From a bacterium (lineage in GTDB: Bacteria > SZUA-182 > DTGQ01), in assembly GCA_040755755.1 (NCBI GenBank), contig JBFLZW010000054.1:70204-134203 (forward strand): a stretch of 64,000 nt of DNA, given 5' to 3'. Both the position numbers and the translations under genes were made by a program. Under the pieces are notes generated by a model that was not told the origin of the DNA, searched no databases, and saw only the letters and a program-made list of their open reading frames with translations. How positions within the stretch are numbered: the first letter of the stretch is position 1; each line of letters starts with the position of its first letter. Positions 16,551 to 55,426 of the stretch are shown here, piece after piece.

Positions 16551-17111
16551 TTATTCGGATTTTCCGAGGAGCAACTCCAGGGAATCGTCCAGGAATTTTT
16601 CCCACGGGAAATCCTTGTCCACATCCAGACGAAAAATAATATTATTGGCCTGATCCAGCAATACCCGGGCCAGCCGGTTGCGGTCTTCAACCTGATTCCC
16701 CGCCTGAAACAGAGGGTCCAGCACGGTAGCCAGCAGGGTCAGACGCTGATCTCTGGTCGATTCCGCCATTTTAATCACCGATTGCATCAGAGGGGGCGGC
16801 AGAGTGGACAGAGATATTTCTTCCTTTTTCCTCTGAACTTCAGCGATGTTCGACTTCAACATGGTTGAAACCTTTTTTTCCAGCGGCCAGTTTTTATGAA
16901 CAATTTTGATCCACTCCCCGGTCACTTCCTGAAGGTGGCTCTGGATAAGGGTCAGCAGTATCTCCTCTTTGCTGGTAAAATGAAGGTAGACAGTTCCCTT
17001 GCCGATCTGCGCCTCACGGGCGATTTCCTCGATCGTGGTCTTTTTATAGCCGAACCGCTGAAAGAGCTTCAGGGCTGTCTCAAGAATCGTATTTTTAACC
17101 TGGTCATCCAT
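16551..17111 (-). CDS. TetR-family transcriptional regulator
   Basis: 186 residues. The N-terminal helix-turn-helix (about 10-55) has the classic TTIEEIAREAQIGKGTVYLHF recognition region; the C-terminal ligand-binding half is divergent. It is first in the efflux gene run and about 80 bases from tolC, so it probably represses its own operon, as AcrR/MexR-like regulators do. The ligand is unknown. Confidence 0.92.
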   Translation of the reverse strand: MDDQVKNTILETALKLFQRFGYKKTTIEEIAREAQIGKGTVYLHFTSKEEILLTLIQSHLQEVTGEWIKIVHKNWPLEKKVSTMLKSNIAEVQRKKEEISLSTLPPPLMQSVIKMAESTRDQRLTLLATVLDPLFQAGNQVEDRNRLARVLLDQANNIIFRLDVDKDFPWEKFLDDSLELLLGKSE

Positions 17112-17340
17112 CGTTGACTTGTGTCCATTTCCGTTTTCCAGTCATTATACCAGTTTTTCGACTCCTGTAAAGACCTTTTTCCCTATGGTTGAAAAATCAG
17201 ACGTACTGTTATATTATAATTTTCCCGATGAAAAACAGAGAGGAGGTGGGGAAAAAGATTTTCCAGGGAAATGGATTGTACACTTTTCTCAAGTGTCTGC
17301 TCAGGAACTTAAACTTGACTCATGATTGAGGAGAAGAAAG

Positions 17341-17859
17341 ATGAAGTCTTTCATGATAAAATTGATGATGATATTGTCGTGTTACGGACTGATTTTTTTT
17401 GCCTGCATCAATCCCTGCTCTGCTCAGGGAAGTGCCGGTACATTCGGTTTGGGCATTAAGGATACCATAGCTGCAGAAGAGGCATTCATAGTAGTTGGCC
17501 GTTTTTGGGTCTCGGACATGGTAACCATAGACGGGAACTTCGGTTTTAAATACATCGATGTTGAGAATGATAAAGATAATGATTATAAACGGTTTTTACT
17601 CGGGGTAGGCATCAATCAATATCTGCTTTCTCCGCAAAAGTTCAGACCGTTTGTCGGCCTCGATTTTCTCATACGAGTCGATGACCCCAGGAAGGGCGAA
17701 AGCGATACTACCGGAGAGTTGGACGGAAAGGTTGGGGGTGAATACTTCCTTGCGGACAGATTCAGCCTGAGCGGAGAGGTGCTCCTCAGGCTGCGTTTTG
17801 GTGATGAAGACGAGTTTGGCACAGGCGGAAGGCTTGGAGTGATCTATTATCTAAACTAA
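17341..17859 (+). CDS. Small outer-membrane beta-barrel-type protein
   Basis: 172 residues. A signal peptide (1-~27, ending CSAQG) is followed by alternating beta-strand-like segments and a C-terminal GGRLGVIYYLN, fitting an eight-stranded OmpA/OmpW-like barrel. ATG 17341 is preferred to TTG 17326 because GAGGAG lies 8 bases upstream. No defined family was recognised. The last 17 codons including the stop are exactly duplicated immediately downstream. Confidence 0.7.
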   Translation: MKSFMIKLMMILSCYGLIFFACINPCSAQGSAGTFGLGIKDTIAAEEAFIVVGRFWVSDMVTIDGNFGFKYIDVENDKDNDYKRFLLGVGINQYLLSPQKFRPFVGLDFLIRVDDPRKGESDTTGELDGKVGGEYFLADRFSLSGEVLLRLRFGDEDEFGTGGRLGVIYYLN

Positions 17860-17910
17860 GACGAGTTTGGCACAGGCGGAAGGCTTGGAGTGATCTATTA
17901 TCTAAACTAA
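17809..17910 (+). repeat. Exact 51-bp tandem duplication at a gene end
   Basis: Bases 17809-17859 (last 16 codons plus TAA of the barrel protein) are repeated without a difference at 17860-17910. The unit is a multiple of three, so the second copy stays in frame after the first stop. Perfect identity suggests a very recent event or an assembly artefact. Confidence 0.95.
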
Positions 17911-18237
17911 ATACTACTACCGCGAAAGCGGAGATCCATGTGCTATTTGGTATTTTCCCGCAGAGACGCACAGGCGCAGAGGATATCATTTTTGGTCATT
18001 CTCTGCGCCTGTGCGTCTCTGCGGGAGATCATTCTTCATATACTTTTAAGCCGCCCCGCCCATCCGGTCGAACCCGATAGCGCCCATTTTCTCCGGCAAG
18101 GCTAACTGTTTATTTACTACCAATAAGTTAGGCTCATTTTTTCTGATCTGGCATGATACTTGGAGAAGTATAGTTCATTCCTGATAACCACTCAGGTAGA
18201 GAGACTGTTGCCATGAAAACCAGTGGAGGATAGGAAG
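17911..18237. other. Intergenic gap with perfect 25-bp inverted repeat
   Basis: Arms 17957-17981 and 18001-18025 are perfect reverse complements (25 bp) around a 19-base loop; the words (GCACAGGCGCAGAG) resemble the dispersed CTCAGGCACAAAGGGGC family. There is no T-run after either arm. A 19-base motif at 18057-18075 (CGCCCATCCGGTCGAACCC) recurs with two changes at 20309-20327. A weak stem CTAACT...AGTTAG followed by CATTTTTT at about 18103-18142 could terminate transcription. Confidence 0.8.
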
Positions 18238-18888
18238 GTGCGAAGGTGGTATTTGCTTTTAAACGCGGTGTTTGCGATTTGGGTGCTTGCCGATGGATTT
18301 AAGCGCAAGGCAAATGCTGCCCTCTGGGCAGTCGGAACGCTGGTGTTCGGATCGTATATTTTCCCCGTATATCTTATTACCAGACAGCCATCAAAGACCG
18401 AGGCACTTCCCAAGGGCAGGCCAGTATGGCGGTTCCTGAAAAATTTCGCCTTTTTCTCCGGCATCGTTTGCTGGACCCTGCTGCTGATAATGGCTGGTGT
18501 CTGGAAAGATACGTCCACGGTAAATGCCAAAGAGGAAAGCCCTGAATACAAACTTGCTGTCCTCAATGCGGAAGGTTATGTCTGCCATGACGATGAAACC
18601 GTTTACCGCTTTAGCTCGTTACTCGACCAGTTATCCAGCAACTATGGAGAAAGCCGTCAGCACATTGCGAATATTTCGGTAATAGCTTATAAGAAAGTCA
18701 GAACGCGCGACCGGAAGGATGCCTCTTTGTTGAATATCATGGAAGGCTTAAATAAGCTCTGTTATTATGGAGATTTGAAAGATCAAAAATATGCCGCCCA
18801 TGCTTCCATCTATGTCAGGTTACGATGTATGGGGCAATCTCATAAACAGGCTATCAAAGGACTGCAAGCCCTGGTGAGAGGCTATTGA
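18238..18888 (+). CDS. Unknown membrane protein with two N-terminal helices
   Basis: 216 residues from GTG 18238, chosen because GGAGG is 8 bases upstream (GTG 18223 would add five residues). Two hydrophobic segments lie at about 5-50 (WYLLLNAVFAIWVLA and a second ending FPVYLI) and another at about 75-98 (FFSGIVCWTLLLIMAGV). A soluble C-terminal ~115 residues has Lys/Arg and Tyr and ends QAIKGLQALVRGY. I do not recognise a family. It is 37 bases from the porin gene, so may be co-transcribed. Confidence 0.65.
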   Translation: MRRWYLLLNAVFAIWVLADGFKRKANAALWAVGTLVFGSYIFPVYLITRQPSKTEALPKGRPVWRFLKNFAFFSGIVCWTLLLIMAGVWKDTSTVNAKEESPEYKLAVLNAEGYVCHDDETVYRFSSLLDQLSSNYGESRQHIANISVIAYKKVRTRDRKDASLLNIMEGLNKLCYYGDLKDQKYAAHASIYVRLRCMGQSHKQAIKGLQALVRGY

Positions 18889-18925
18889 AGGCCGTGTGCC
18901 TTATATCCATGACGGAAGTACAAAA

Positions 18926-20266
18926 ATGGTGAGCAGGAAATTCTTCGGTGCAGCACTGTCGGCCCTGATTCTTGCAGGATTTCTCTCATTTTCCTCTTCC
19001 GGGTTGGCGGAGAAGGTCAAAAATGGCACTCCTCAGCCAGAGGAGCGGTCCGGAAGACGAAGACCTTACTCCTCTTTTTCCGAGGCCGGTGAATCACTGA
19101 GTAAGTATGACACCAGGGACAACAAAGCCAAGCCTGAGCAGGAAGGAGATGCCAAAATTGAAGTGGGAGTTGTCCTGGCATGGGACTACAGCTCGTATAC
19201 CGGAGCCCATATTGAGGATAGCTCCCAGCACAAGGATAAGGGCCATCACTGGCGCGGCGAGTCGGAGCTGCGCCGTGCCTCTCTTGACGTGAAGAGTAAA
19301 CTCAACAAAGACTGGCAGGCAGAGATGAAAGTTAGCTTTAGCAATGACGAAGAGCCTGCCACCGAGATTGAAGATGCCTATATGGAATTCAGCGGCTGGG
19401 ATCATGGCGACCTGATCATCGGCCAGGCCAAGGAACCGTTCGGGCTGGAAGGGTTGGCCAGTTCCGAGGATACTATAACCATCGAGCGGTCTATGGCTAC
19501 CAGTGCCTTTGCTCCGGGACGAAATCCCGGGTTGAGATTATCCGGAGCTATCCGGAAATTCACCTGGGCTGCCGGTGTCTATGAAGCCCTTGACCGTGAA
19601 GATAAACGGGACACCTATGCCCTGACCGGCCGGTTGACCATCGCCCCCTGGCAGCATAAAACCCGTGTGCTGCATCTGGGCCTTGCAGGTTCCGTCAGGG
19701 ACTTTGGCGGCGAGAAGTATCAAATTCAAGAGCGTGCCGAAGTACATGCCGCAGAAAAAAGCGTTACCGGCATCGAGACCCTGGCGGATAAAGTCAATCT
19801 TATGGGACTCGAAGCAGCCTGGGTGTCCGGGCCCATCTCGCTGCAGGCAGAATATATGGCCGTATCGGTAGAAGCGGATATCGGTGATGATGCCGCCTAC
19901 AAGGGTTATTACCTGCTGGGAAGCTATTGCCTGACCGGAGAATCCCGGGCATACAAAAAAGGAACTTTCGATAGTATTAAACCCAGGGCCCGATACGGAG
20001 CTTTTGAACTGGTGGTCCGCTCCAGTGTTCTGGACGCTTCTATTCCTCTGTCTTCAAAAATTCCGCTTCCTGCCTCTGGCCGGGAAAATAACGACCATAG
20101 CCGTGCAGGGGTCAAGGCCGCCAGCCTTACCCTGGGCATGAACTACTACTTCAACCGGCAGGTGCGGCTGATGCTCAACTCCATCCACACCAATCTGTCC
20201 GGTAATGTATCGAAGGATGAAGATAATGCCAGTGCGGTTTCCTTCAGGGCTCAGTATAGTCATTAA
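18926..20266 (+). CDS. Phosphate-selective porin O/P-type outer-membrane protein
   Basis: 446 residues from ATG 18926 (GGAAGT upstream; the GTG at 18896 would precede the signal peptide by ten residues). Signal peptide to about GLAEK, a short charged linker, then an OprO/OprP-type barrel with EVGVVLAWDYSSY, LRRASLDVKSKL, DAYMEFSGWDHGDLIIGQAKEPFGLE and ASLTLGMNYYFNRQVRLMLN near the C-terminus. It is likely an outer-membrane channel for phosphate or polyphosphate-like anions, judged by family only. The VTC polyphosphate polymerase-like gene is two genes downstream. Confidence 0.8.
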   Translation: MVSRKFFGAALSALILAGFLSFSSSGLAEKVKNGTPQPEERSGRRRPYSSFSEAGESLSKYDTRDNKAKPEQEGDAKIEVGVVLAWDYSSYTGAHIEDSSQHKDKGHHWRGESELRRASLDVKSKLNKDWQAEMKVSFSNDEEPATEIEDAYMEFSGWDHGDLIIGQAKEPFGLEGLASSEDTITIERSMATSAFAPGRNPGLRLSGAIRKFTWAAGVYEALDREDKRDTYALTGRLTIAPWQHKTRVLHLGLAGSVRDFGGEKYQIQERAEVHAAEKSVTGIETLADKVNLMGLEAAWVSGPISLQAEYMAVSVEADIGDDAAYKGYYLLGSYCLTGESRAYKKGTFDSIKPRARYGAFELVVRSSVLDASIPLSSKIPLPASGRENNDHSRAGVKAASLTLGMNYYFNRQVRLMLNSIHTNLSGNVSKDEDNASAVSFRAQYSH

Positions 20267-20453
20267 TTCACTAATCCCTGCTCAATTCGCCCCCCTGGTC
20301 CTCCTGGTCGCCCATACGGTCGAACTCAATGCTCTGCCTGTCCGGAGGGTGAAGATAAGATAATACTTGATTTTCAATATCTTGTTCCGATCCAGAAAGT
20401 CTGGCATGGGAATTGGAAAAATAGTAATCAACAGACAGATTGGGAGGTATTCC

Positions 20454-21248
20454 ATGAAAGATACTACCAGAATAGCATTATTACATCAGCATCTGAGGGA
20501 ATTGAAATTGGACAATATTTTGGAACACTACCCTGAGCTTATGCAGCAGGCTGAGGACCGGGAATCGAGCTATGAGGAGTTCCTCTTATCACTGACCGAG
20601 CTGGAGCTTCGGGTAAGAGCGCAGAACAGCCTCAACCACCGGATCGAAGATGCCCGGTTTCCTCTCTTGAAGACCCTGGAGTCTTTTGATCTGAATGAAA
20701 TCCCCGGCCCTGCTGGCCGCCTGATTCAGGAATTGATGAATGGAGAATACATCGTGCAGCACCGGAATGTAATAATCCTGGGGGAAGCCAGGACAGGGAA
20801 AACCCACCTGGCCATAGCCCTGGGAGTCGAAGCCTGCCGCCAGGGAGTGAGGACCCGCTTCGTGACCTCCGGCAGTCTGGCTCATGAGTTGATTGAAGCC
20901 CGCAGGGAGCGGGCCTTAAGCCGACTGGTCGGGAAATATGATCGCTATGGGCTTTTGATTCTCGATGAGCTTGGGGCTGAGCCCTTTTCACCCGAAGGAG
21001 CCGAGCTTGTGTTCGAAGTTCTGGCCGAGCGCCACAAAAAGGCATCGGTAATTATTGCCTCTCGCCTTGAATTCGCGGAATGGACTCAAATTTTCGGGGA
21101 GACTACTCTTACCAACGCGCTCGTAGACCGGCTGACCCATAATGCCGCAATTATCACCCTCCCGGAGAGGGTTGCCGTCTCGAAAAGACTATCTATAAGG
21201 AAGGATGACAGAGGTGATTCAGCGGGAAGGACTGCAACTGCGACATGA
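20454..21248 (+). CDS. IstB-like ATPase without an IstA partner
   Basis: 264 residues from ATG 20454, chosen because GGGAGGT lies 5 bases upstream. The N-terminal helical region (LRELKLDNILEHYPEL) is IstB-like. Walker A is GEARTGKTH, Walker B LLILDELGAEPFS, then SNQEF-like region SRLEFAEW, and sensor residues LVDRLTHNA. IstB proteins are the AAA+ helpers of IS21 transposases, and some act as DnaA/DnaC-like ATPases. No istA or IS ends are found here. It overlaps the VTC gene by 44 bases out of frame, so it is now embedded in that operon. Confidence 0.85.
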   Translation: MKDTTRIALLHQHLRELKLDNILEHYPELMQQAEDRESSYEEFLLSLTELELRVRAQNSLNHRIEDARFPLLKTLESFDLNEIPGPAGRLIQELMNGEYIVQHRNVIILGEARTGKTHLAIALGVEACRQGVRTRFVTSGSLAHELIEARRERALSRLVGKYDRYGLLILDELGAEPFSPEGAELVFEVLAERHKKASVIIASRLEFAEWTQIFGETTLTNALVDRLTHNAAIITLPERVAVSKRLSIRKDDRGDSAGRTATAT

Positions 21249-21933
21249 ATTAAAATTTTACATCGATCCTCCACAGTATCGGATTCTTCGAAGCAGGCTC
21301 TCGGCACTCCTGGCAATGGACCCGTATACCGGTCCTGACGGACGCTATCATATCAGGAGCCTCTACTTCGATGACTTCAGGAACACCGCCCTGTTCGATA
21401 AGCAGGCAGGGGTTGCCCGTCGAAAGAAATACCGGATGCGCATCTATGATTACAGCGATGCGGTTATTAAGCTCGAACGAAAAATCAAGCTGAATGAGTA
21501 TATCGGCAAGGAGAGTGTCCGGATCACCCGGGAGGAGGCTGACCGCATTTTGGCCGGAGATGTCGCTTTTCTGGCCAGATCGCAGAGCCGCCTTCTCAGG
21601 TCATTCTACCTGGAGAGCCGTATCAACCTCCTGCGGCCCAACGTGATTGTGGACTACTATCGTGAGGCGTATGTTCATCCGATGGGCAATGTCCGGATCA
21701 CCTTTGATATCGGCGTGCATACAGGGTTTGGCTCGGTGGCGATTTTTGACCGCCATCTCTTCACTACGGGAGCTATCGAGGAGCCTGGTACGATTCTGGA
21801 AATCAAGTTTGATAATTTCCTGCCCCAGGCCATTCAGGGGTTGTTCCCCAGTACGATTCGACCGCGATTAACTATCGGAAAATTCGTCATCTGCAAGAAG
21901 CATACGAAATATAACGATTGGGAGGATAATTAA
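21205..21933 (+). CDS. VTC-domain protein (polyphosphate polymerase-like)
   Basis: 242 residues forming a single VTC domain, a triphosphate-tunnel fold. Conserved residues are visible: RHELKFYI at the start, SLYFDD, the basic YRMRIY and KLERKIK strands, VDYYREAYV and LEIKFDNFLP with acidic metal ligands. Yeast VTC4 uses this domain to make polyphosphate from ATP; bacterial stand-alone versions are less well characterised. The start overlaps istB by 44 bases; a GTG at 21213 is also possible. It is followed after 2 bases by the DUF4956 gene, a frequent partner. Confidence 0.88.
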   Translation: MTEVIQREGLQLRHELKFYIDPPQYRILRSRLSALLAMDPYTGPDGRYHIRSLYFDDFRNTALFDKQAGVARRKKYRMRIYDYSDAVIKLERKIKLNEYIGKESVRITREEADRILAGDVAFLARSQSRLLRSFYLESRINLLRPNVIVDYYREAYVHPMGNVRITFDIGVHTGFGSVAIFDRHLFTTGAIEEPGTILEIKFDNFLPQAIQGLFPSTIRPRLTIGKFVICKKHTKYNDWEDN

Positions 21934-21935
21934 CA

Positions 21936-22604
21936 ATGATTACTCTTGAAGAATTAATGAATATGTTAAATGGCCTGTCTCAAGTCAACCAGCCGATCAC
22001 CGCCATGCGGGTGGTGTTGACCCTGCTGATCACCTGCATTATTGGCCAGTTTATATTCTTTGTCTACCGGAAAACCTTCAAAGGAGTTCTCTACACCCGC
22101 AACTTCAACGTGGGGCTGGTAATGATCGCTATGGTGACAGCACTCGTCATCCTGCCCATCAGTTCCAACATTCTCCTTTCTCTGGGGATGGTGGGCGCTC
22201 TCAGCATCGTACGCTTTCGCACTGCTATCAAGGATCCCATCGATACCGTGTTCATGTTCTGGGCTATCGGGGTGGGTATCTGCTGCGGTGCGGGCTTCTA
22301 TATGGTGGGTATTATCGGCAGCCTCATGATCGGGCTTTTCATGTTCCTGATGAACCAGGTGAGCCTGAGCGGGGAAGAGCCCTATCTCCTGGTGGTCCAC
22401 TTTGAAAACGGGGCCGAGACCGCAGTCCGTGAGGCACTTCCGGCACACAAGCTCAAATCTCAAACCGTGACTGCTGCCGGCGTGGAACTGATGCTTGAGG
22501 TCCGTGCCAAGGCCAATGCCGCCTCCAGGATGGATAAGCTCCTTCAAATTGCAGGTGTCAAGGATGCCGCACTCATCAGCTATAATGGTGATTATGTGTC
22601 GTGA
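21936..22604 (+). CDS. DUF4956 membrane protein
   Basis: 222 residues with about four transmembrane segments (about 22-45, 60-80, 85-105 with SLGMVGALSIVRFRTAIKDP, 110-140) and a soluble C-terminal ACT-like half. The SIVRFRTAIKDP stretch after a helix is the hallmark of DUF4956, whose genes commonly sit beside VTC-domain genes. It may be the membrane partner or transporter for the polymer made by VTC; this is inferred from gene neighbourhood. Confidence 0.85.
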   Translation: MITLEELMNMLNGLSQVNQPITAMRVVLTLLITCIIGQFIFFVYRKTFKGVLYTRNFNVGLVMIAMVTALVILPISSNILLSLGMVGALSIVRFRTAIKDPIDTVFMFWAIGVGICCGAGFYMVGIIGSLMIGLFMFLMNQVSLSGEEPYLLVVHFENGAETAVREALPAHKLKSQTVTAAGVELMLEVRAKANAASRMDKLLQIAGVKDAALISYNGDYVS

Positions 22605-22622
22605 ACATGATATGCTAGAGGG

Positions 22623-23513
22623 ATGCGCATGAAAGTATTCCTGGTTGTATTGTCATGTGCGGTTATAACTATGGCTGGAGGGCTTCTTTTCGAGACTGGC
22701 CGTATCAGTGACGGCCTTAAGTCTGTCCAGGTTGAAGCATCAACCTTTCCCTATGACCTGGACAATCCGGCAGATAAATTTAAGCTGCCTCATGTTTTGG
22801 ATGAAATCTCCGGCATCTCATATTTGCCGGAAAATAAACTGGCCTGTGTCCAGGATGAGGATGGGATAATCTATGTATTTGATCTTGAACGAAAGAAGAT
22901 AACCGCTACCTGCGAATTCGGCAGGGAAAGGGATTATGAGGACATTGCCCTCGTGAACAATACTGCGTATGTCTTGCAAAGTAATGGCCAGATACTGGAA
23001 ATAACCGACTTCTGGAGAAAAGACCCCACGATTAGCAGGCTAAAAACCCCACTCCTGTCGAAAAAAAATGATACTGAAGGACTGGCTTTCGACGCTGAAT
23101 CGAATTCATTGCTGATTACCTGCAAGGGATCGCAGAACACGAAAAAAAAACGCGGTGGTTTACCTGGTTTAAATGGTTTACAGGGTGAAAATACAGTTTA
23201 CCAGTTTGATCTCGGTACCCGGAAGCTTTCGGTAAAATTGGGGTATACGGTTGGAGCGGATGATGCATCCTTTCACCCATCCGGAATTGCAGTTCATCCG
23301 ATAACCCGGGATATTTATATCCTGAGCTCGGTCAATAAAACATTAATCGTTGTACATCCGGAAGGGGAAATTATCGCAGCCAGGAGATTGGATAACAAAA
23401 CCTTCAAACAGCCGGAAGGAATCTGTTTTAATCCCGATGGAGATTTATTTATTTCAAATGAAAGGCACCAGGAGGGCAAGGCCAATATCCTGCGATTTAA
23501 CTATCAACCGTAA
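22623..23513 (+). CDS. SdiA-regulated-family beta-propeller-like protein
   Basis: 296 residues with an N-terminal signal peptide or anchor (VFLVVLSCAVITMAGGLL). The rest matches the SdiA-regulated family: LDEISGISYLPE, YDVFDLE-type strands, RDYEDIAL, NDTEGLAFDAESNSLLITCK, HPSGIAVHP and QPEGICFNPDGDLFISNE. These proteins are periplasmic and of unknown function, with propeller-like repeats. ATG 22629 is an equally good start. It lies 18 bases after DUF4956, so is likely last in the istB-VTC operon. Confidence 0.8.
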   Translation: MRMKVFLVVLSCAVITMAGGLLFETGRISDGLKSVQVEASTFPYDLDNPADKFKLPHVLDEISGISYLPENKLACVQDEDGIIYVFDLERKKITATCEFGRERDYEDIALVNNTAYVLQSNGQILEITDFWRKDPTISRLKTPLLSKKNDTEGLAFDAESNSLLITCKGSQNTKKKRGGLPGLNGLQGENTVYQFDLGTRKLSVKLGYTVGADDASFHPSGIAVHPITRDIYILSSVNKTLIVVHPEGEIIAARRLDNKTFKQPEGICFNPDGDLFISNERHQEGKANILRFNYQP

Positions 23514-23693
23514 TATGCAAGTCAAATGAAGAGCCTGACCGTTGTTAGCAGTCTGACATTTATCTGTCTGATGGCTGCCTTGCCTGGCCTGGCTAGAGGG
23601 GGAAACAGGAGGGCTATCAGCTTTACCAGGATCCGGGAGTGCATGAGCAGAACTCTCCCTAAAACTATTTGAATTTGCTTGTTGCACTCCTCC

Positions 23694-25019
23694 CTACCCC
23701 GTCTCCTCGGCAGCCATCTGAATGCCTGCGGCCACATCGGGAATGATGCCCAGCTTGATATAGATCGGATTAATCATTTCGCTGAGGGCCGAAAGCCTGC
23801 TGGCAAATGCCAGTGATCCGAGAATACAGCAGGCCCCTCCGATCATGAGCGTATTCGGCGCGCCAATGGCACTGGCCAGACTGCCGGCCAGCAGGCTGCC
23901 GCAGGGTTCCATACCGACAAAGGCCATGGTGAAAAAACTCATTATCCGGCCACGCTTATCTTCCTCCACAATGGTCTGCAGGAGCGTATTGCTTGAAGCC
24001 ATCTGCACCATGATCCCAAATCCGGTCAACAGCAGGGGGAACAGCGAGAGTATCAGAACACGGGAAAGGGAAAAAGCGACCAGCCCGATGCCAAAGATGC
24101 CCGAAGCAATGGCGATCATTTTCCCAAGCCCCAGAACGCTTCTCTGCGAGGCAAGGTAAAGAGAGCCCAGGAAAGCTCCTGCGCCCGAAGCTGCGACCAG
24201 GAAACCCAGGGTCCTGGAGCCGCCGTGAAGAATGGTTTTGGCGAAAATAGGCATCAGTACCATATAGGGCATACCCATGAAACTGACCAGAGCGAGGAGC
24301 AGCAAAACCGATCTGATGGGTGCAAACCCGAAAGCGTACGAGAATCCTTCCCGGAGCTCCTGCATGACATAGGGCCTTTGGCCACTTTTTTCTTTCGGTG
24401 CAATCTTCATGGCCAGCAGGGCTACGATAACCGCCAGAAATGTCAGGCCATTCAGGAGAAAGCACACCCCCTCCCCGACGAAAGAAATGAGTATGCCCGC
24501 TATGGATGGCCCAACCAGCCGGGCCCCGTTAAACATCGTGGAGTTGAGGGCGATTGCATTGCCCAGGTCATCCTTTCCGTCAATCATATCCACCAGAAAT
24601 GCCTGGCGGCCAGGGATGTCAAAGCCGTTGACCAGACCGATGAATATGCTTAACAGTATGATATGCCAGGCCGCAACATGACCGGATAAAGCGAGAGCGG
24701 CCAGAATGAAGGCTTGAATCATGGACAGAGTCTGAGTGGCGATCACAAGACGCCGGCGGTTCCATCTGTCGATCAGCACCCCGGCCAGCGGAGCAAAAAG
24801 GAAGGCGGGAATTTGACTGGCAAATCCGACCACACCGAGCAGAAACACCGAATGGGTCAGGTTATACACCAGCCAGCTCATGGCCACCATCTGCATCCAG
24901 GTGCCAATCAGGGAAATGCTCTGGCCAAAGAAGAAGAGACGAAAATTCCTGTAACGAAGAGAGCGAAGGATCAGCTTCAGTCCTTTTACTTCGCGAGAGC
25001 TAGTTTGCGCAGGTTCCAT
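23694..25019 (-). CDS. MFS exporter (EntS/MFS_3-like)
   Basis: 441 residues with about twelve hydrophobic segments. The N-terminus FRLFFFGQSISLIGTWMQ and the loop GVLIDRWNRRRLVIATQTL are typical of the MFS_3 branch (DHA3, EntS- and macrolide efflux-like). It exports small molecules by proton antiport; the substrate is unknown. It is convergent with the SdiA-like gene and apparently monocistronic. Confidence 0.88.
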   Translation of the reverse strand: MEPAQTSSREVKGLKLILRSLRYRNFRLFFFGQSISLIGTWMQMVAMSWLVYNLTHSVFLLGVVGFASQIPAFLFAPLAGVLIDRWNRRRLVIATQTLSMIQAFILAALALSGHVAAWHIILLSIFIGLVNGFDIPGRQAFLVDMIDGKDDLGNAIALNSTMFNGARLVGPSIAGILISFVGEGVCFLLNGLTFLAVIVALLAMKIAPKEKSGQRPYVMQELREGFSYAFGFAPIRSVLLLLALVSFMGMPYMVLMPIFAKTILHGGSRTLGFLVAASGAGAFLGSLYLASQRSVLGLGKMIAIASGIFGIGLVAFSLSRVLILSLFPLLLTGFGIMVQMASSNTLLQTIVEEDKRGRIMSFFTMAFVGMEPCGSLLAGSLASAIGAPNTLMIGGACCILGSLAFASRLSALSEMINPIYIKLGIIPDVAAGIQMAAEETG

Positions 25020-25321
25020 ATTCTTTTTTCGGTTTTTCCCTTATCTCAACAATGGCTTTCTCCTGTAGGCCTTCTGATTATGCATACGACATGTTTCTCC
25101 TCGGTCCTTTAATTCCACTCATTATACAGCCTCTCTCCTGAAATGACAATTGAAAGATGCTGATTGAAAATCATAGCCCCGAAAATTCCCCGAAAATCCG
25201 ATTAATTACGTAAACAAATATATTATTCGTCAAAATATCTGATAAAGACGAAGTTTAAGTTATCGAAACGATTAACTATCAGCTTAACAGAAGCTTAAGC
25301 TTAAGAAAGGATTGACGGGAA
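25020..25321. other. Intergenic gap between divergent genes
   Basis: Divergent promoters for the MFS gene and the phospholipase-like gene are expected here. The half next to the latter is A/T-rich and holds a self-complementary AAGCTTAAGCTTAAG stretch near 25291-25306. No gene or known RNA element was seen. Confidence 0.4.
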
Positions 25322-26281
25322 ATGAAAAAATGTATCTTCATGACTCTGGCTACACTCCTGGTATTAAGTTTCACCTGCGATCATGGTTTTGCCTGGGGGC
25401 CTGCCACGCACACGTATATTATGCGAAAGCTGGATAGGGGGTTTGGAATAGCAAATTCACAAAAGCTGTATGGAGCCATAGCTCCTGACATCTTCAGCTA
25501 TATTTACCGGGTACCAAACAGGAGGTATTTAGAAGAGCAGATGCATTATGAATTCATGGGCGTCTGGGACGAGGCCGAGGGGAAAAATGAAAAAGCGTTT
25601 GCCCTCGGATTTATAAGCCATAATGATGTTTGGGGAGCGGATTACGTTGCCCGCCATGTGCCTGACTATGAGAGCATGAAAGCCCAACAGCTCATCGACA
25701 GGATACTGAAAGAAAATCCATCCCACTATTCTGCGGACGTAAAGGGCGTCCTGAATGCGCTGCTGGCTCTTGGCTATGGGCACGCCGAAGAACTCTGCCG
25801 CATTGCTGTAGAATATAGTGTGGATCTCTTGATAAAACGGTATAATGATCCGGAAATCGGGGCCAGAATTGCCCTTTCGTCCACACTGCGGGACTCAAGC
25901 ATCCCATCTCTCCTGGCCGGGGTCTATGGCCGGGATGAAGACGAGAAAAAGGTCATTATTCAGGGTGAAGCGGCATTTCAGAAGATCATGGCATCTTACG
26001 GAAAAGACCTGCTCCAGGATGAAAAATCCGCGATTAAGGCAGTTGCCGGGCATATCGCTGCAATTGCTCCCCAGGCACTGTGTATCGAGCTTCCCGAGAA
26101 GGAGAAATTAGTCAAAATTGGTGTTGAGCTTATCAACGGTGGAATGGCTGTCTGCAAGTCCGACTATCATCAACTTGTCTTGGCATCGGTCAAAGCCATA
26201 AAGGAAAAAATCAGTCTGGGAAATTTCGAGAGTAATCTGGATGATCCCGGTAACTTGGAGAGTATGGAACCTGCGGAATAG
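25322..26281 (+). CDS. Zinc-dependent phospholipase C-family protein
   Basis: 319 residues. A signal peptide ends near DHGFA, after which the mature N-terminus begins W-GPATHTYI, the Trp1/His zinc-binding start typical of the phospholipase C/P1 nuclease-like family. More His and Asp ligands occur in AIAPDIF, MHYEFM and FISHNDVWGADY. It is likely exported and membrane- or periplasm-active. The substrate is not shown. A 10-bp stem (26293-26302 with 26339-26348) follows the stop. Confidence 0.75.
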   Translation: MKKCIFMTLATLLVLSFTCDHGFAWGPATHTYIMRKLDRGFGIANSQKLYGAIAPDIFSYIYRVPNRRYLEEQMHYEFMGVWDEAEGKNEKAFALGFISHNDVWGADYVARHVPDYESMKAQQLIDRILKENPSHYSADVKGVLNALLALGYGHAEELCRIAVEYSVDLLIKRYNDPEIGARIALSSTLRDSSIPSLLAGVYGRDEDEKKVIIQGEAAFQKIMASYGKDLLQDEKSAIKAVAGHIAAIAPQALCIELPEKEKLVKIGVELINGGMAVCKSDYHQLVLASVKAIKEKISLGNFESNLDDPGNLESMEPAE

Positions 26282-26607
26282 GAGCTCCGGATATCCCCTC
26301 CCCCGGCATCATCCTGTCATTCTGTCAAGGTTGATCAAGGGAGGGGATGCGTTATCAGTGGTCAGTGGTCAGTAAAAACTGATCCCTCGTATATATCAGC
26401 CAGCACACCGCATGTCATTCCCGCGCAGGCGGGGATGTCGGGCAGTTGAGCATCGAATAGCCAAAGGTAACGTTGTGCCTGTGTGCCCCTTTGTGCCTGA
26501 GTAGTTACCATGTCGGAAATAAAGATTGATTCTTACCTCTTGTTTTTCTCTCCTTCAAACCATCTCTCGATTAAAAGGTAATCTATCAAAAAGGCTTTGC
26601 CCGCAGC
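26282..26607. repeat. Repeat-rich intergenic region
   Basis: Holds, in order: a stem ATCCCCTCCC/GGGAGGGGAT (26293-26302 and 26339-26348), a CAGTGGTCAGT repeat (26351-26383), a short palindrome-like CCCGCGCAGGCGGG (26416-26436), and a TGTGCCTGAGTAGTTACC repeat (26473-26510). No gene. Confidence 0.7.
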
Positions 26608-27993
26608 ATGCTTCAACTCATTGCCTTATCAGCCAAAATATGGTTTAATAATCCCAAGAGGGTTTATTTATCGGTAAACTATGATGACAGGCTATTTTTG
26701 AAAGGAAACCTGCTTTTGAGTCAACTATTATACTCCTGGCCGCTTTTATCAGCCATGCTTATCGCCTTGTTGGCGCTTTCCGCTTTTTTCTCCGGGTCTG
26801 AGGCTGCCATGATGTCCCTCAACCGGCTGCGAATCCTCTATCTGGCCAAGCGTCGCCAGTCAAAAAAGGCTCAACTGATCAATCAACTGCTGGAACACAG
26901 GAAAAATATGCTCAGCACTATTCTGGTGGGCAATAATTTCGCAAATGTAGCCGCGTCCTCCGTGGCCACTGCCCTGGCTATCGCCCTGTGGGGAAGCAGC
27001 GGCATTTTGTATGCCACGATCGCGATCACGCTGATCTTGCTGATTTTCTGTGAAATTTCACCCAAAATCTACGCCAGCAGGTTTCCGGAAAAGATTGCCT
27101 TTATGGTGGTCCGTCCTGTGTTATGGTGTATGAGTCTTCTGCAGCCGGTTGTCAGTGCCGTCAACCTGCTGGGTGACCTCCTGTTGAAATTTATCACCCC
27201 CCATGAAAGCAGAAAAGTGCCGCTTATCTCGGAGGAGGAAATTCTGGCTGCCATTTCAGCGGGAGAAGAAGAGGGCGTTGTTGAAAAAGAGGAGAGTAAG
27301 ATGCTGATGAGCATTTTTGACCTGGCCAGCATCTCGGTGAGAGAAATCATGATTCCCAGGACAGAAATGATTTGTATTGAAGAAAAAGCCTCATATGCCG
27401 AGGTAGTCCGTCTCATCAGTCGGTCAGGCCGCTCCCGTATTCCTGTTTATAAGGATTACATTGATAACATTATCGGTGCCATTCACAGCCGCGACCTGAT
27501 CGACTTTCAGGAGAGCCCGCAAGCCTTCTCTCTGCCTAAAATCATGCATCCCCCCTTCTTTATCCCGGAGTCCAAAAAGGCACTCTCTCTGCTGGCAGAC
27601 TTTAAGGAGGGGAAAATGTATCTGGCCCTGGTCGTCGATGAATATGGAGGAATTGAAGGGTTAGTCACCCTGGAAGATGTGCTGGAGGAGATCGTCGGTG
27701 ATATTCTCGATGAATACGACCGCAAGAGGGAGTGGATTAAATATCTCCCTGATGGAAGAATCATCGTTGATGGTCATGCTTCCATCAGGGAGATTAACAG
27801 GTCTCTGAATACTTTCATTCCCCATGAGGAGTTTCAAACCCTGTCAGGCCTGATCCTGGATCAGCTCGGCCATATTCCGGTCCGGGGTGAATCCGTTTCC
27901 TACGAGGGGTATCTTCTTACTGTCAGTTCCATGCGCAGGCAAAGGATTTCCAAGGTTGAAATCCAGATCCTGGAGCAGCCAAAATCAGAATAA
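26608..27993 (+). CDS. CNNM/CorC-type membrane protein (DUF21-CBS-CorC_HlyC)
   Basis: 461 residues. A DUF21/CNNM membrane domain (about 45-230) begins [19 protein letters not shown]. It is followed by a CBS pair (about 245-365, [12 protein letters not shown] and [19 protein letters not shown]) and a C-terminal CorC_HlyC domain. Members are linked to Mg2+/Co2+ efflux or resistance and were once called haemolysins. The N-terminal ~45 residues before the first family motif look loosely conserved, so the real start may be further in. The last 9 bases overlap convergent hppA. Confidence 0.88.
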
Positions 27994-30045
27994 GCTGAGC
28001 AGCATGGTGTGCAAACGGACAATAACCGGTCCGAAAACCAGGGAAGAAACTGCCATCAGCTTTAACAGGATATTCAGGGACGGACCGGCAGTATCCTTGA
28101 AGGGATCACCAACCGTATCGCCTGATACCGCTGCTTTATGGACATCCGAACCTTTGCCTCCAAGGTTGCCTGCTTCGATAAATTTTTTAGCATTATCCCA
28201 GGCGCCACCGGCATTGGCCAGCATGATAGCCAGGGGGACTCCGGAAACCAGTGAGCCCACCAGAAAGCCGCCAAGGGCTTCAGGGCCAAGGATGATGCCG
28301 ATAATCAGGGGGACGGTGACAGACATGATGCCGGGAACAATCATTTCCCGTATGGCTCCTTTGGTGGTAATATCCACGCACCTGGCCGAATCCGGCATGG
28401 TCTTTCCTTCCATCAGCCCTTTAATCTCCCGGAATTGCCTTCTTACTTCCTCCACAATGGAGAAGGCCGCTCTTCCAACCGCCTGCATGGTCATGGCGCA
28501 GACAATGAAAGGAATGATGCCGCCGATAAAGAACCCGGCCACAACATATGGGTCTATGACGTTCAATATTCCCAGCTTGACCGTTTCCCCATAGGCAACG
28601 AAAAGTGCCAGAGCGGTCAGGGCTGCGGAGCCGATGGCAAATCCTTTACCGATAGCCGCAGTCGTATTTCCGATGGCGTCGAGTTTTTCCGCCCGCTCCC
28701 GGACCTCCCGGCCCATACCGGCCATTTCGGCAATACCGGCTGCATTGTCAGCGATAGGGCCATACGCATCCACGGCCACTGTCATTCCAGTGATGGCCAG
28801 CATCCCGATGGCGGACAGGGCAACACCGAATATCCCCGCAGCCCGGTAGGCAATGATGGTCGCTATGGCAATACCCACCAGGGGCAGGGCTGTTGATTTC
28901 ATACCTACAGCCAATCCCTGGATGATGCAGGTAGCTGCACCGGTCTTGGCTGCATTGGCTACGGTTTCAACCTGCGTGCCTGAAGTATAGTATTGGGCGA
29001 CATACCCGACGACCATACCGGCAATCAGCCCTGAGAGGACTGCCCAGAAAAGGTTCATACTGCCATACCACTTGGCACACAAAACAAACGATCCGATGGC
29101 CAGGAGAACTGCCGATGCAGTCATGCCCCGGTTCAATGCCTTCTGCGGGTCGGACTTTTCATCAGCCCTGACGAAAAATATCCCGATTGTTGAAGAGATG
29201 ATGCCCCATGCCGAGAGCAAAAGGCATAATAAAACTCCTTTTACGTCTATGTTGGGATTTGGAGCGGCGGCTATGACCATGCCGGAAACAATGGCTCCGA
29301 TGTATGACTCAAACAGATCAGCACCCATACCAGCCACATCACCGACGTTATCTCCGACATTATCGGCAATAACTGCCGGGTTTCTGGGATCATCTTCAGG
29401 AATACCGGCCTCGACCTTGCCGACAAGGTCCGCACCGACGTCGGCGGCTTTGGTATAAATTCCGCCGCCGACCCTGGCAAAGAGAGCCACGGAGGATGCC
29501 CCCATCGAGAAACCGGCAATCATCTGAACCGCGTCAATGATCGCTGTATCTAAATCCGGACGGCTTCCTTTCAGGATATAGATGATACCCACGAAAACGG
29601 CAGAGAGTCCCAGAAGGCCCAGGGAGACAACACTGGTCCCCATAACCGCTCCTCCCGGAAAAGCAACACCGATAGCCTCATTATAGCTTTTGGCTGCGGC
29701 CTGGGCGGTTCTGCAATTTGCTCTGGTGGCGATACTCATGCCGATATAGCCAGCCGTGATAGAGCACAGAGCACCGATAACAAAAGCCACGGCTGTCTCT
29801 ATGGTAACGAACAGAGCCAAAACAGCAAACACCACGACTACAAAGACTGCAATTGCTCTATACTCTCTGAACAGGAAGGCCATTGCACCTTCGTGGATGG
29901 CATCAGAGATCCTGACCATTTTCTCTGTGCCCGGGTCTTTCGACAGGATCCGCTTAGCCAGAATCCAGACAAAGAACATTCCAAGAATTCCCACCGCAAT
30001 TGAAACAAAAATAGGCCCCAAGGAACCACCGATTAAGGCATCCAT
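27985..30045 (-). CDS. hppA: Membrane ion-translocating pyrophosphatase
   Basis: 686 residues, about 16 membrane helices. Hydrolyses PPi to pump H+ or Na+ across the membrane. The catalytic block [38 protein letters not shown] is complete. The sequence [15 protein letters not shown] has Ala where K+-independent enzymes have Lys, so it should be of the K+-dependent class, and the Glu in DLFESY fits that class. H+ versus Na+ transport cannot be decided. It is monocistronic with its own upstream gap (30046-30257). Anaerobes use it to recover energy from biosynthetic PPi. Confidence 0.95.
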
Positions 30046-30257
30046 ACTATCATCGTCCTCCTGTATAATCCCACCAAAATAAAAGAGAAAACAAGGAATA
30101 ATGAGTATAATCCGAAAAGACTACTGCGGCATAAACTTCTTTGAAGAATGCTGTGATTTATGTGCCCATCTGACAGATCCCTCCCCCTTTAGCCCGTTTT
30201 ATCATTCTTCAATTTCTCACAGCGCCAGGTGATCGATAGGTACTATTTATTTTTACT

Positions 30258-30839
30258 TTAACCCACAGCATCCAGGCGATTAAATCTATTCATGGCTGTC
30301 AGGATTCCCTCATCGAGGATGACCTCCACGCACTGGACTGTAGTTTCAATAACCTTGGCTACTATAGTCTGTTCTTCTTCGGAAAATTCTTTTAAAACAT
30401 ATTCTTTTGGTTCCTGCTGGCCGCAGGGCCTGCCGATGCCGATCCGAAGGCGGGGGAACTGGGAAGTTCCCAGACACTGGATGATTGACTCTATGCCCCG
30501 GTGCCCGCCGCTCCTTCCCTGCCCGCGGATCCGTATGCGGCCCAGTGGTAAATCCATATCGTCATGAATGACAAGAAGATCTTGATAGGTAAGATGGTAA
30601 TAAGAGAGAAAAGTAAGGACTGCTTTTCCGCTGAGATTCATGTAAGTCTGAGGCTTGACTAAAAGTACCTCCTTTCCCCTGATTGTCCCCCTTCCCCATT
30701 GAGATACCGAATCAGTGTGAGAAAGCTGAATCTGATATGCTGATGCCAGTGCATCAACGGACTGGAAACCAATATTATGGCGGGTTCGTCGATAACGGGA
30801 GCCGGGATTTCCCAGTCCGACAATGAGTTGCAAATCCAA
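30258..30839 (-). CDS. pth: Peptidyl-tRNA hydrolase
   Basis: 193 residues, the normal length. Catalytic His21 in RTRHNIGF, Asn11 in GLGNPG, the KPQTYMNLSG loop and Asp93/94 in IHDDMDLP, then GGHRGIESI. It frees tRNA from dropped-off peptidyl-tRNA. Last of the minus-strand housekeeping run, 14 bases after rplY. Confidence 0.97.
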   Translation of the reverse strand: MDLQLIVGLGNPGSRYRRTRHNIGFQSVDALASAYQIQLSHTDSVSQWGRGTIRGKEVLLVKPQTYMNLSGKAVLTFLSYYHLTYQDLLVIHDDMDLPLGRIRIRGQGRSGGHRGIESIIQCLGTSQFPRLRIGIGRPCGQQEPKEYVLKEFSEEEQTIVAKVIETTVQCVEVILDEGILTAMNRFNRLDAVG

Positions 30840-30853
30840 GCCCCGGCCCCGGC

Positions 30854-31483
30854 CTATTTTGCTTCAGGTTCGGGTGCTGGTGCAGGTTCCGCAGCAGCGG
30901 CAATCTTCGATCCCTGAGTAATCGTCAGCAAAACCGTTCCCGGATCTTCCAGAATGGTGACGCCTTCAGGAGCCTTCAAATCCCGTACATGGATAGCTTC
31001 TCCTGCATCCAGGTTGGTAATATCAACCTTTATAGAGTCGGGGATAAACTTGGGAAGACATTCAACCAGAATCTCCCGCTTTACGTGATCCAGGATTCCG
31101 CCACCGAGCTTGACACCCCTGGCCTCGCCGACGGTCTCCACCGGCACTTCCATTGAAATCGCCTTGTCTGCTACCATCTCATAGAAGTCTACATGGACCA
31201 GGGTATCTTTTTTGGGCTCAAATTGCAGCTCTTTGATAATTGCCCTGACCGTCTCCTCCTTATGATTGGCATCAGCTTCGATTTTCATATTAAAAATAAC
31301 ATTTTCATGTAACTCACCATGAGTTTGTTTTAAAAATTCATTGGTATCAAACCATAAGGGCAAAGCTTTTTCGCGGTTCCCATACAGAATAGCCGGCGTG
31401 AATCCCTTCCTGCGCAGACTTTTGTTGGCTTCCTTGCCGAACTGGTCCCTGACTTTTGCCTTTATGTTAATTTGAACAGCCAT
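30854..31483 (-). CDS. rplY: 50S ribosomal protein L25, Ctc/TL5 type
   Basis: 209 residues: an N-terminal L25 5S-rRNA-binding domain (about 1-95) plus the C-terminal TL5 domain (KFIPDSIKVDITNLDAGEAIHVRDL), and an Ala/Pro/Glu-rich tail. It binds 5S rRNA in the large subunit and is stress-related in some bacteria. The two-domain form is normal outside gammaproteobacteria. It lies between prs and pth. Confidence 0.96.
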   Translation of the reverse strand: MAVQINIKAKVRDQFGKEANKSLRRKGFTPAILYGNREKALPLWFDTNEFLKQTHGELHENVIFNMKIEADANHKEETVRAIIKELQFEPKKDTLVHVDFYEMVADKAISMEVPVETVGEARGVKLGGGILDHVKREILVECLPKFIPDSIKVDITNLDAGEAIHVRDLKAPEGVTILEDPGTVLLTITQGSKIAAAAEPAPAPEPEAK

Positions 31484-31538
31484 TTACGCCTCCATGCGAA
31501 TAAAAGCATACCGCTATATGCCATCAAGATGTTAAGAA

Positions 31539-32480
31539 CTATACAAAAAGGGAACTTACCGATTTATCGACGTTGATCCGATAGATGGTTTCACCGATCA
31601 GGTCTGCCACTGACAGTATCTCGACTTTAGCGGAATTCTGGACCTTTTCCTTGAGTGGAATCGTATCGGTAACCACTAATTTTTTGAGATCCGAAGAATT
31701 GATCCGGTCCATGGCGCTTCCGGATAGCACGGCATGAGTGCAGCAGGCATACACACTCCTGGCTCCGTTCTGAATCAGGGCCGTGACCGCCTTGACCAGG
31801 GTGCCGCCGGTATCGATCATGTCATCGATAATAAAGGCATCTTTCCCCTTGATATCTCCAATGATGTTCATGACCTCGGATTCATTGGGTCTTTCTCTTC
31901 GTTTGTCGATAATGGCAATCGATACATTCAGCCGCTTGGCATAGTTCCGCGTGCGCTCCACTCCGCCGGCATCCGGGGAAACGAGAATCACATTGGACAG
32001 CTTGAGGCTTTTGATATAATCAATCAGCACCGGTGCGGCTAAAAGATTATCCACCGGTACATTAAAAAAGCCCTGAATCTGGCCGGCGTGCAAGTCCATA
32101 GTCAAAACTCGGTTAGCCCCGGCAGTGGTCAGCAGGTCAGCCACCAGCTTGGCGCTGATGGGAACCCTCGGCTGCACCTTCCGGTCCTGCCGGGCATACC
32201 CGTAATAGGGGATCACGGCGGTAATTCTCCGGGCGGAAGCCCGCCGGAGTGCATCAATGATAATCAAAAGCTCCATCAGATTGTCATTGACCGGAGGACA
32301 GGTTGACTGGATGACGAACATATCTGCGCCGCGGACATTTTCATTGATTTGAACGACAATCTCACCGTCGGCGAATTTTCCGACCGTCGCCTCCACCAGG
32401 GGAACTCCCAGGTAGTTACTGATCCCCTTGGCCAGAGGCACATTTGAATTTCCTGCTATTAATTTTAATTCAAAACCCAT
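31539..32480 (-). CDS. prs: Ribose-phosphate pyrophosphokinase
   Basis: 313 residues. Makes PRPP from ribose-5-phosphate and ATP for nucleotide, His and Trp synthesis. Motifs: flexible-loop YARQDRK, the PRPP-binding [13 protein letters not shown] and HAVLSG. The prs-rplY-pth order is common in Desulfobacterota and some other groups. The tRNA-Gln gene is 23 bases upstream. Confidence 0.97.
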
Positions 32481-32503
32481 TTCTCTTCTCTCTCAAAAAC
32501 TGA

Positions 32504-32575
32504 CTGGGGCGGGAGGATTCGAACCTCCGAATGCAGGAACCAAAATCCTGTGACTTACCGCTTGTCGACGCCCCA
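32504..32575 (-). tRNA. tRNA-Gln (anticodon TTG)
   Basis: 72-base cloverleaf on the minus strand. The acceptor stem is TGGGGCG/CGCCCCA; the D arm is GAC/GTC; the anticodon arm is CAGGA-TTTTGGT-TCCTG with anticodon TTG; the T arm contains GGTTCGAATCC. The 3' bases after discriminator G are TCA, so CCA is not genome-encoded and must be added. It lies between spoVG and prs. Confidence 0.95.
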
Positions 32576-32626
32576 TCAAAAGTTAATCATTACCTCATGT
32601 TGAGTTATATTGGTTGAGGCACCAGA

Positions 32627-32884
32627 TCACATTTCAACTTGCGTCTTGTAGTGGTTGAGAACACTCTCCTCAATCAATTTTCGCATTTCCTTATTCAGGG
32701 GATGGGCGACATCCCGAAAAGTCCCATCCTTGGTTTTCTTATTTGGCATAGCGACAAACAGTCCATTGTTGCCATGGATGATTTTCATATCCCGAACAAC
32801 AAAGGCATCATCAAAAATAACCGTTGCGTAAGCCTTTAGCTTTTCACCATTTACTAAATAGATGTTCACGTCTGTTATTTCCAC
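32627..32884 (-). CDS. spoVG: SpoVG-family regulatory protein
   Basis: 85 residues matching SpoVG: MEITDVNIY, VFDDAFVVRDMKII, GLFVAMPNKK and FRDVAHPLN. In Firmicutes SpoVG affects septation and binds nucleic acid; it also occurs in Spirochaetes and many deltaproteobacterial-type genomes where the role is unclear. It lies 28 bases after ispE in the same run. Confidence 0.93.
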   Translation of the reverse strand: MEITDVNIYLVNGEKLKAYATVIFDDAFVVRDMKIIHGNNGLFVAMPNKKTKDGTFRDVAHPLNKEMRKLIEESVLNHYKTQVEM

Positions 32885-32912
32885 CTGCCTTCACCGTCCT
32901 CCCGGTAAAAAG

Positions 32913-33797
32913 TTAGTTGATCTTTGTGTTACCCACTGGTTGAGCTAAAAAAACCTTCCACCCACTACTTTCTTTCCTCATAAGATTAAAAGCCTGGTCG
33001 GCTAATGGATGATCAGCGAATATTCCAAAGACACTCGCACCGCTTCCACTCATGACAGCACCCACGGCTCCCGCGGAAAACAGACGATTGGTTAATTCGG
33101 CAATTACAGGGTATCTCTTGACTACAACCGCTTCCAGGTCATTGTGAAGATAATAACCTATCCGAGACAGGTCATTCTCTCTCAAAAAAAGTTGCACCAT
33201 GTTAATATGATTCGACTTATTTGTCAATAACAAACTGGTATGCGCATAAACCCATTGGGTTGCAATGGGAAAGCCGGGATTGACAATAACTATCCATGAC
33301 TTAGGCAAGGGTGTCACAGGAGTGAGGTCTGCTCCGATCCCCTCACCCAGGGCACAGGCATGTCCCGAAAGGAAAAAGGGTACATCCGCCCCAAGTTGCC
33401 TGCCCATCATAAGCTGCTCCTCATATGGAAGAGTAAGTTGAAACAGCTCGCTCAAGCCTTTCAGGGTAGCTGCCGCATCACTGCTGCCGCCCCCCAACCC
33501 TGCGGCTACCGGGATAGTTTTGCGGATACGGATGCGGACCCCGGATGGAACGCTGAACCGGGACAGAAACAGCCTGGCTGCTTTCCAGACGATGTTGTCC
33601 TGACCGGACGGGATATCCTCATCCCCTTCACAGACAAGCTCAATTCCCTCTCTGACGGGCCAAAACTCCAGTTCGTCATGCAGGCTCACTGCCTGAAACA
33701 GGGTCCGGATGTCATGATATCCATCCTCTCTCTTTCCGAGAACCGCCAGCCCCAGATTAATCTTTGCCGGAGCGATGACCTTTATCCCCTGCTCCAT
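32913..33797 (-). CDS. ispE: 4-diphosphocytidyl-2-C-methyl-D-erythritol kinase
   Basis: 294 residues of the GHMP kinase family; phosphorylates CDP-ME in the MEP isoprenoid pathway. The substrate motif APAKINLGL is at the N-terminus, the ATP loop is PVAAGLGGGSSDAAATL, and GAVMSGSGASVFG is near the C-terminus. It lies between the outer-membrane lipoprotein gene and spoVG. Confidence 0.95.
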   Translation of the reverse strand: MEQGIKVIAPAKINLGLAVLGKREDGYHDIRTLFQAVSLHDELEFWPVREGIELVCEGDEDIPSGQDNIVWKAARLFLSRFSVPSGVRIRIRKTIPVAAGLGGGSSDAAATLKGLSELFQLTLPYEEQLMMGRQLGADVPFFLSGHACALGEGIGADLTPVTPLPKSWIVIVNPGFPIATQWVYAHTSLLLTNKSNHINMVQLFLRENDLSRIGYYLHNDLEAVVVKRYPVIAELTNRLFSAGAVGAVMSGSGASVFGIFADHPLADQAFNLMRKESSGWKVFLAQPVGNTKIN

Positions 33798-55375: not shown

Positions 55376-55426
55376 GCAATGAGCAGTCGTCCCCTGTTGA
55401 AATAGCCAGAATAGTCAGTATCGCGT

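Follow-up and report, generated by a model that had tools for sequence, protein, structure and literature searches.

A VTC–DUF4956–β-propeller operon as a candidate polyphosphate system next to a separate porin unit in a bacterium of a little-known class

The stretch of DNA analysed here (the window; 64,000 nucleotides of contig JBFLZW010000054.1 from assembly GCA_040755755.1) belongs to a bacterium of a little-known class. Its positions 18926–23513 contain five genes that encode, in this order and all on the plus strand, a porin, an IstB-like ATPase, a VTC-domain protein, a DUF4956 protein and an SdiA-regulated/NHL-type β-propeller. The last three genes (21214–23513) form a tight three-gene operon, and the five genes do not form one cassette. 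In the interpretation preferred here, to which a probability of roughly 0.55 is assigned, the VTC protein would act as a polyphosphate polymerase and the DUF4956 protein as the exit for its product in an operon with the propeller, the porin would belong to a separate unit, and the IstB gene would be a remnant.

The operon begins with the VTC-domain triphosphate-tunnel protein (21214–21933, plus strand; 239 amino acids from a GTG start), which matches PF09359 with 116.2 bits against a cut-off of 23. The DUF4956 protein (21936–22604, plus strand; 222 amino acids; PF16316, 41.1 bits against 30.6) follows after 2 nucleotides, and the propeller (22623–23513, plus strand; 296 amino acids; PF06977, 34.5 bits against 21) follows after a further 18 nucleotides. 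The VTC start is probably GTG 21214 rather than the alternative ATG 21205 because a Shine-Dalgarno-like AAGGAAGG, read from the sequence at 21197–21204 on the plus strand within the IstB frame, precedes it and because a Met of the VTC protein from a same-order relative (G004) aligns there. The G004 protein is 80% identical to the window protein, and its frame contains a further ATG upstream of the aligned Met. With the start at 21214, the IstB and VTC genes overlap by 35 nucleotides. The propeller exhibits an N-terminal hydrophobic segment and on that reading may be secreted or anchored; signal peptides and membrane helices were judged by eye throughout. An earlier note on this DNA had named the same five genes in the same order and strand, and each of them exceeds the profile cut-off of its family. 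The tight spacing that the note described applies to the operon and fails for the whole span because the porin and IstB genes are 187 nucleotides apart (20267–20453).

Conservation of the neighbourhood was surveyed using a VTC alignment scan of genome contigs, which confirmed 579 stretches; the best 80 of these were taken as loci. Neighbours were counted by blastp (E ≤ 1e-4), and 67 of the 80 loci hold 5 kb upstream and 67 hold 5 kb downstream. DUF4956 is located within 1 kb of VTC in 79/80 loci and within 5 kb in all 80; a count restricted to called genes is lower (VTC in 73, DUF4956 in 70 and CotH in 51 of the 80). Within 5 kb of VTC, CotH occurs in 60/80 loci, purple acid phosphatase in 21/80, the Pel protein PelG in 17/80, LTD proteins in 12/80 and Cthe_2159 in 2/80. 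An SdiA-like gene lies within this distance in one locus, the G004 contig, and the porin, IstB and the small gene upstream of the porin lie within it in none of the 80. In addition, no IstB was found in 21 other VTC loci with up to 1.5 kb of flank. The loci come mostly from Bacillota. Bacillota do not have an outer membrane, and the missing porin therefore says little. VTC itself is found in 20 of the 193 genomes of the relatives search, including the genome of the window. By these sequence comparisons, VTC–DUF4956 is a widespread pair, and the single five-gene cassette of the earlier note gives way to a three-gene operon.

The closest comparison is provided by the class of the host. The genome of the window (G000) is a 97.6% complete draft, and G001, G003 and G004 are relatives from the same genus, family and order, respectively. 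Among the eight other class genomes (G001–G008), VTC is found in G004 alone, where contig C230 carries VTC, DUF4956, an SdiA-like propeller and an LTD protein in this order, with no IstB in the approximately 550 bases before VTC. The proposed link of the SdiA-like gene to VTC thus holds in G004, the sole VTC-bearing relative of the same order, and in none of the other 79 loci. On a second short G004 contig (C141), the small gene (44% identity) and the porin (50% identity) are followed by an LTD gene that is truncated where the contig ends. For the porin, the link to VTC in relatives is supported by the presence of this ortholog and not by adjacency; in G004, the porin and VTC are on different short contigs. 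A match to the small gene is present in 1/8 class genomes, directly before the C141 porin. Within the class, a good match to the porin, the small gene, VTC and the SdiA-like gene were each detected in G000 and G004 but in none of the other seven genomes, a distribution that favours joint inheritance of the porin unit and the operon. In the same-genus genome G001, none of the four was found by these searches. A 34-kb portion of one G001 contig matches the window only at 23730–33797, as two rearranged pieces. The start of this match at 23730 delimits the block on its right and is silent on gain versus loss and on the left edge.

The IS21 helper-type ATPase gene istB (20454–21248, plus strand; PF01695, E 4.5e-61; NF038214, 237 bits against 200) separates the porin from the operon. 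Its start is best placed at ATG 20454, which is preceded by GGGAGG, and its frame is open for 264 codons. It has no IstA next to it, as the porin gene precedes it and VTC follows it. The P-loop reads GEARTGKT (Gly to Arg) and the sensor-I triplet reads ASR (Asn to Arg), whereas GxxG and an Asn-ending triplet are each observed in 12/12 comparable IstBs. This comparison comprises 16 loci (the window copy, two places represented twice and 13 distinct others), 12 of which cover each motif; IstB matches without a retrieved locus were left out. The IstB of IS5376 (8q3w), which belongs to the same family and matches the window protein with an E of 2.5e-39, agrees with the 12 IstBs at both motifs. At the C-terminal end, family homology stops near base 21161; the final 28 codons cross the VTC ribosome site into the VTC gene. 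Helpers of the IS21 type from three other lineages share 41–45% identity with the window protein. Protein identity rises to 50–56% for partial copies located at a contig edge in G003 and, within the host genome, on contig C61 (likewise at a contig edge) and contig C69 (with an internal stop); the G003 and C61 copies are 68–70% identical to the window gene at the DNA level.

IstB is probably a decaying IS21 remnant between two units and not a member of the system, given its absence from the 80 loci and from the region before the G004 VTC, the missing IstA, the two changed ATPase residues and the tail that runs into VTC; a domesticated but inactive ATPase is less likely. It is highly improbable that the whole stretch forms one envelope phosphate/polyphosphate cassette in which IstB is a domesticated ATPase coupled to VTC. 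Such a cassette would account for the long open frame with its GGGAGG, for an overlap of the kind typical of translationally coupled genes and for the presence of both porin and VTC in G000 and G004, but it is at odds with the linkage counts, the two Arg substitutions, the end of family homology near base 21161 and the partial copies on C61, C69 and in G003. The flanks of IstB (20267–20453 and 21130–21213) align with the region before the G004 VTC no better than shuffled sequences (9% and 37.5% of 200 shuffles score as high) and thus mark no insertion points.

The VTC protein retains the residues of the yeast polymerase Vtc4. In a profile alignment (8i6v numbering), all 11 mapped Vtc4 positions (K200, R264, R266, E279, K281, K294, R361, R373, E426, K428 and K458) are matched in the window protein, and the matching residues are invariant across 20 aligned VTC proteins. 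The matched positions other than R264, R266, E426 and K458 are presumably active-site residues as well. R264, R266 and E426 were mutated to inactivate VTC (PMC9911596), and K458 is termed catalytic (PMC4641920). The AlphaFold model of the VTC protein has a pLDDT of 93, and its 12 best matches in the PDB are all chains of VTC proteins, headed by Vtc4 (3g3r, E 3.7e-13). Apart from the VTC domain, this protein of 239–242 amino acids matches no Pfam family. The protein thus resembles the Vtc4 catalytic domain (3g3q/3g3r, 8i6v) in its predicted tunnel fold and in the mapped residues but differs in having neither an SPX domain nor a membrane segment in the chain, in its membrane partner DUF4956 and in a Glu that replaces T198. 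On the basis of the alignment and the model, the VTC protein is a candidate polyphosphate polymerase, and a function in polyphosphate synthesis is plausible.

Other polyphosphate polymerases were sought in the class genomes. PPK1 is found in 0/9 of them, compared with 7/14 in the control rings of the same search. A single PPK2 hit in G000 lies above the curated cut-off (24 bits against 22.3) but was rejected, as it spans only 50 residues of a protein that we take, from a motif rather than a profile, to be thymidylate-kinase-like. One Ppx/GppA gene is present in G000. As PPK1 was not found and no PPK2 in G000 is credible, VTC is the sole candidate polyphosphate polymerase identified by sequence in this 97.6% complete draft.

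The DUF4956 protein contains a conserved basic motif, RFRxxxKxxxD, in which R93, R95, K99 and D103 are invariant over 47 DUF4956 proteins, as are G84, G87, A88 and S90. Its model (pLDDT 85) consists of four helices (residues 23–47, 55–92, 101–118 and 122–141), which are predicted to be membrane helices from their hydrophobic make-up, and an ACT-like C-terminal domain. The latter domain relates the protein to the MgtC family, as do weak hits to the profiles PF02308 (E 8e-4) and PRK09977 (E 5e-8); the protein differs from that family in its own basic motif and in scores below the MgtC cut-offs (20.1 against 31.4 bits and 32.9 against 214 bits). A Foldseek search with the model returned no match below E 0.001, and C-terminal domains of MgtC appear at approximately 0.01 (7qa5, 2lqj).

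The porin unit (18223–20266) is separate from the operon and consists of a small upstream gene and the porin gene. The porin (18926–20266, plus strand; start at ATG 18926, with GTG 18896 possible) is a member of the OprO/OprP family (PF07396, 192.3 bits against a cut-off of 20.9) with a signal-peptide-like start. Its best solved relative is Pseudomonas OprP (2o4v, E 1.7e-20). At the OprP positions that we take to form the basic ladder and constriction, R59, R60, R133, K313 and K323 are identical, K378 is replaced by Arg, and K74, K121 and D94 are replaced by Gln, Gly and Glu, respectively. From these residues, the porin likely passes anions. Compared with OprP and OprO (2o4v, 4rjw), which share its family and the five identical basic residues, the loss of K74 and K121 leaves phosphate selectivity as a candidate property. 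The small upstream gene (18223–18888, plus strand) encodes a protein of 221 amino acids with hydrophobic stretches near the N-terminus and matches no Pfam family. It lies outside the region that the earlier note described, yet it is conserved together with the porin.

Gene identities, spacing, linkage, conserved residues and predicted folds suggest the following enzyme activity, transport and joint function. The conserved Arg/Lys ring and Glu of the cytosolic VTC tunnel enzyme would bind ATP with Mn or Mg, and the enzyme would, by analogy with Vtc4, add the γ-phosphate to a growing polyphosphate chain. The chain would be passed to the MgtC-like membrane protein DUF4956, in which the invariant basic loop (R93, R95 and K99) may line the entry to the periplasm. 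The secreted propeller, in the place usually taken by the CotH kinase, may act on or sense the product or a surface partner, and the OprP-like porin with its small partner could supply phosphate. The envelope phosphate/polyphosphate system proposed in the earlier note thereby survives in part. A polyphosphate role of VTC and DUF4956 is plausible in view of the retained residues, the VTC-like fold and the PPK1 search, while IstB is probably no member and the porin adjoins VTC in 0/80 loci.

Several observations weigh against this proposal. For the enzyme, the residue at the Vtc4 T198 position is Glu (E12 in the window protein) in 20/20 aligned VTC proteins. According to PMC4641920, an acidic patch that occurs in AtTTM3 and is not found in Vtc4p is tied to two-metal tunnel hydrolases; by our reading of the strand register, E12 would correspond to Glu-4 of this patch. 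Owing to this Glu, some weight is retained by the alternative that VTC is a triphosphatase or a tunnel enzyme of some other activity and provides an input or a signal to DUF4956. We regard this alternative as rather unlikely: R10 and K198 preserve the basic character of their Vtc4 counterparts R196 and K428, K458 is retained, and the known hydrolases ygiF and AtTTM3 come after the VTC chains in the fold search. A single VTC sequence matched nothing among the PDB chains, and a 20-row profile did reach Vtc4. The listings and passages of open-licence literature covered here report no biochemical assay of VTC from a prokaryote. For the exit, VIA-align rows with Z scores of 9–10 over approximately 70 residues include ACT domains and, equally, unrelated domains of ferredoxin-like fold from translation and splicing factors, so that the DUF4956 C-terminus is defined at the level of fold class; no solved relative is listed for the membrane part, which the fold searches barely probed. 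For the genomic context, a PPK1 gene may possibly be hidden in an assembly gap of the draft, and Ppx/GppA has no match in G004. The co-occurrence of porin and operon rests on one relative, and porin matches also occur in genomes without VTC, weakly in G005 (26–33%) and at 39% (E 2.7e-27) in G022 from outside the class.

The neighbours of VTC elsewhere raise a further possibility, that VTC–DUF4956 serves exopolysaccharide or surface-protein modification, with polyphosphate storage secondary or absent. This option is tentative and has clearly less than even odds; it is compatible with polyphosphate synthesis and export by the operon, and the odds of the two overlap. The frequencies of CotH (60/80), LTD (12/80) and PelG (17/80) within 5 kb of VTC are consistent with it, as are the LTD genes after the SdiA-like gene in G004 and after the porin on C141. 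Moreover, PMC7112168 places cotH, a poly-phosphate polymerase gene, DUF4956 and DUF4832 beside Gram-positive pel operons. By contrast, no CotH or LTD gene is present among the ten scanned window genes of 16551–26281, and the CotH matches of the same genome are located only on contigs C27 and C61. Relative to the Gram-positive Pel accessory set as given there (PMC7112168), the window resembles it in a VTC gene that adjoins DUF4956 on one strand, and differs in that neither CotH nor DUF4832 adjoins, the propeller follows and the host has outer-membrane proteins.

The window and G004 VTC proteins group with VTC proteins of Methanocellaceae and Bathyarchaeota contigs (a four-row set with support 100/99 among 54 rows), which points to cross-domain transfer of VTC if the archaeal contigs are taken as binned. 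On one archaeal contig (L036 10004–14771), VTC and DUF4956 are accompanied by a Cthe_2159 gene, and a DUF202 gene lies further along. DUF202 is, we presume, the family of yeast Vtc1. A bolder and unlikely extension of the polymerase–exit proposal is that the outer-membraned host would have neither PPK1 nor PPK2, that VTC with its MgtC-like partner DUF4956 would be the sole polyphosphate polymerase and would drive the growing chain through the inner membrane as it is made, and that the propeller would replace CotH in the periplasm and the OprP-type porin would feed phosphate. Such a system would be the bacterial equivalent of the synthesis-export machine that VTC forms in yeast, and gene transfer would have spread it between this lineage and archaea.

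The VTC–DUF4956 core pair is not new, as PMC7112168 already describes it. A Clostridium perfringens locus likewise contains two VTC genes, each beside a predicted membrane protein of 222–226 amino acids labelled tubulin/FtsZ, with CotH nearby (PMC2879425). Prokaryotic polyphosphate synthesis is attributed to PPK in PMC7332688 and PMC13318637. The open-licence literature search found no paper that joins the VTC domain by name to DUF4956, to CotH or bacterial polyphosphate, or to SdiA-regulated proteins. What is new here is the known core pair in an outer-membrane host without detected PPK1, with a propeller in the place of CotH, an apparently co-inherited porin and a stray IstB. An operon in a genome without detected PPK1 or credible PPK2 offers a clean case for asking whether a prokaryotic VTC makes polyphosphate and whether DUF4956 moves it across a membrane. 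In this locus, where a propeller replaces CotH, the core pair also occurs apart from its usual partner. The locus is of moderate interest because a direct test of a prokaryotic VTC becomes possible.

Scans of 17800–23800 gave 6 promoter hits (shuffle mean 6.4), which is no excess, and 9 terminator hits (shuffle mean 6.3, standard deviation 3.1), which is approximately the chance level. Upstream of the block, a perfect 51-bp tandem duplication (17807–17910) covers the 3′ end and stop codon of another small gene, whose product has weak matches to outer-membrane barrels. A perfect 23-bp inverted repeat (CGCAGAGACGCACAGGCGCAGAG; 17959–18023) forms a potential long hairpin 5′ of the block; it has no second copy in the window at up to three mismatches, and among 168 loci it recurs only in L131, which represents the same place. 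In G004, PhoU and an ABC transporter ATPase that is presumably PstB-like (L030 8085–9558) lie approximately 5–6 kb past the SdiA-like gene, with unrelated genes between. The region 54000–61700 of the window is low in GC and G-skewed, with many short genes, some of which appear toxin-antitoxin-like by eye, and is perhaps a genomic island; it contains a DUF2887 protein followed by an apparent shortened copy. Gly/Tyr-rich repeat proteins with secreted-looking starts by eye are encoded at 2–604 of the window and at 11–796 of L160 from the same genome, and a third, also recognized by eye, lies at L030 3–245 on the opposite strand beside VTC in G004.

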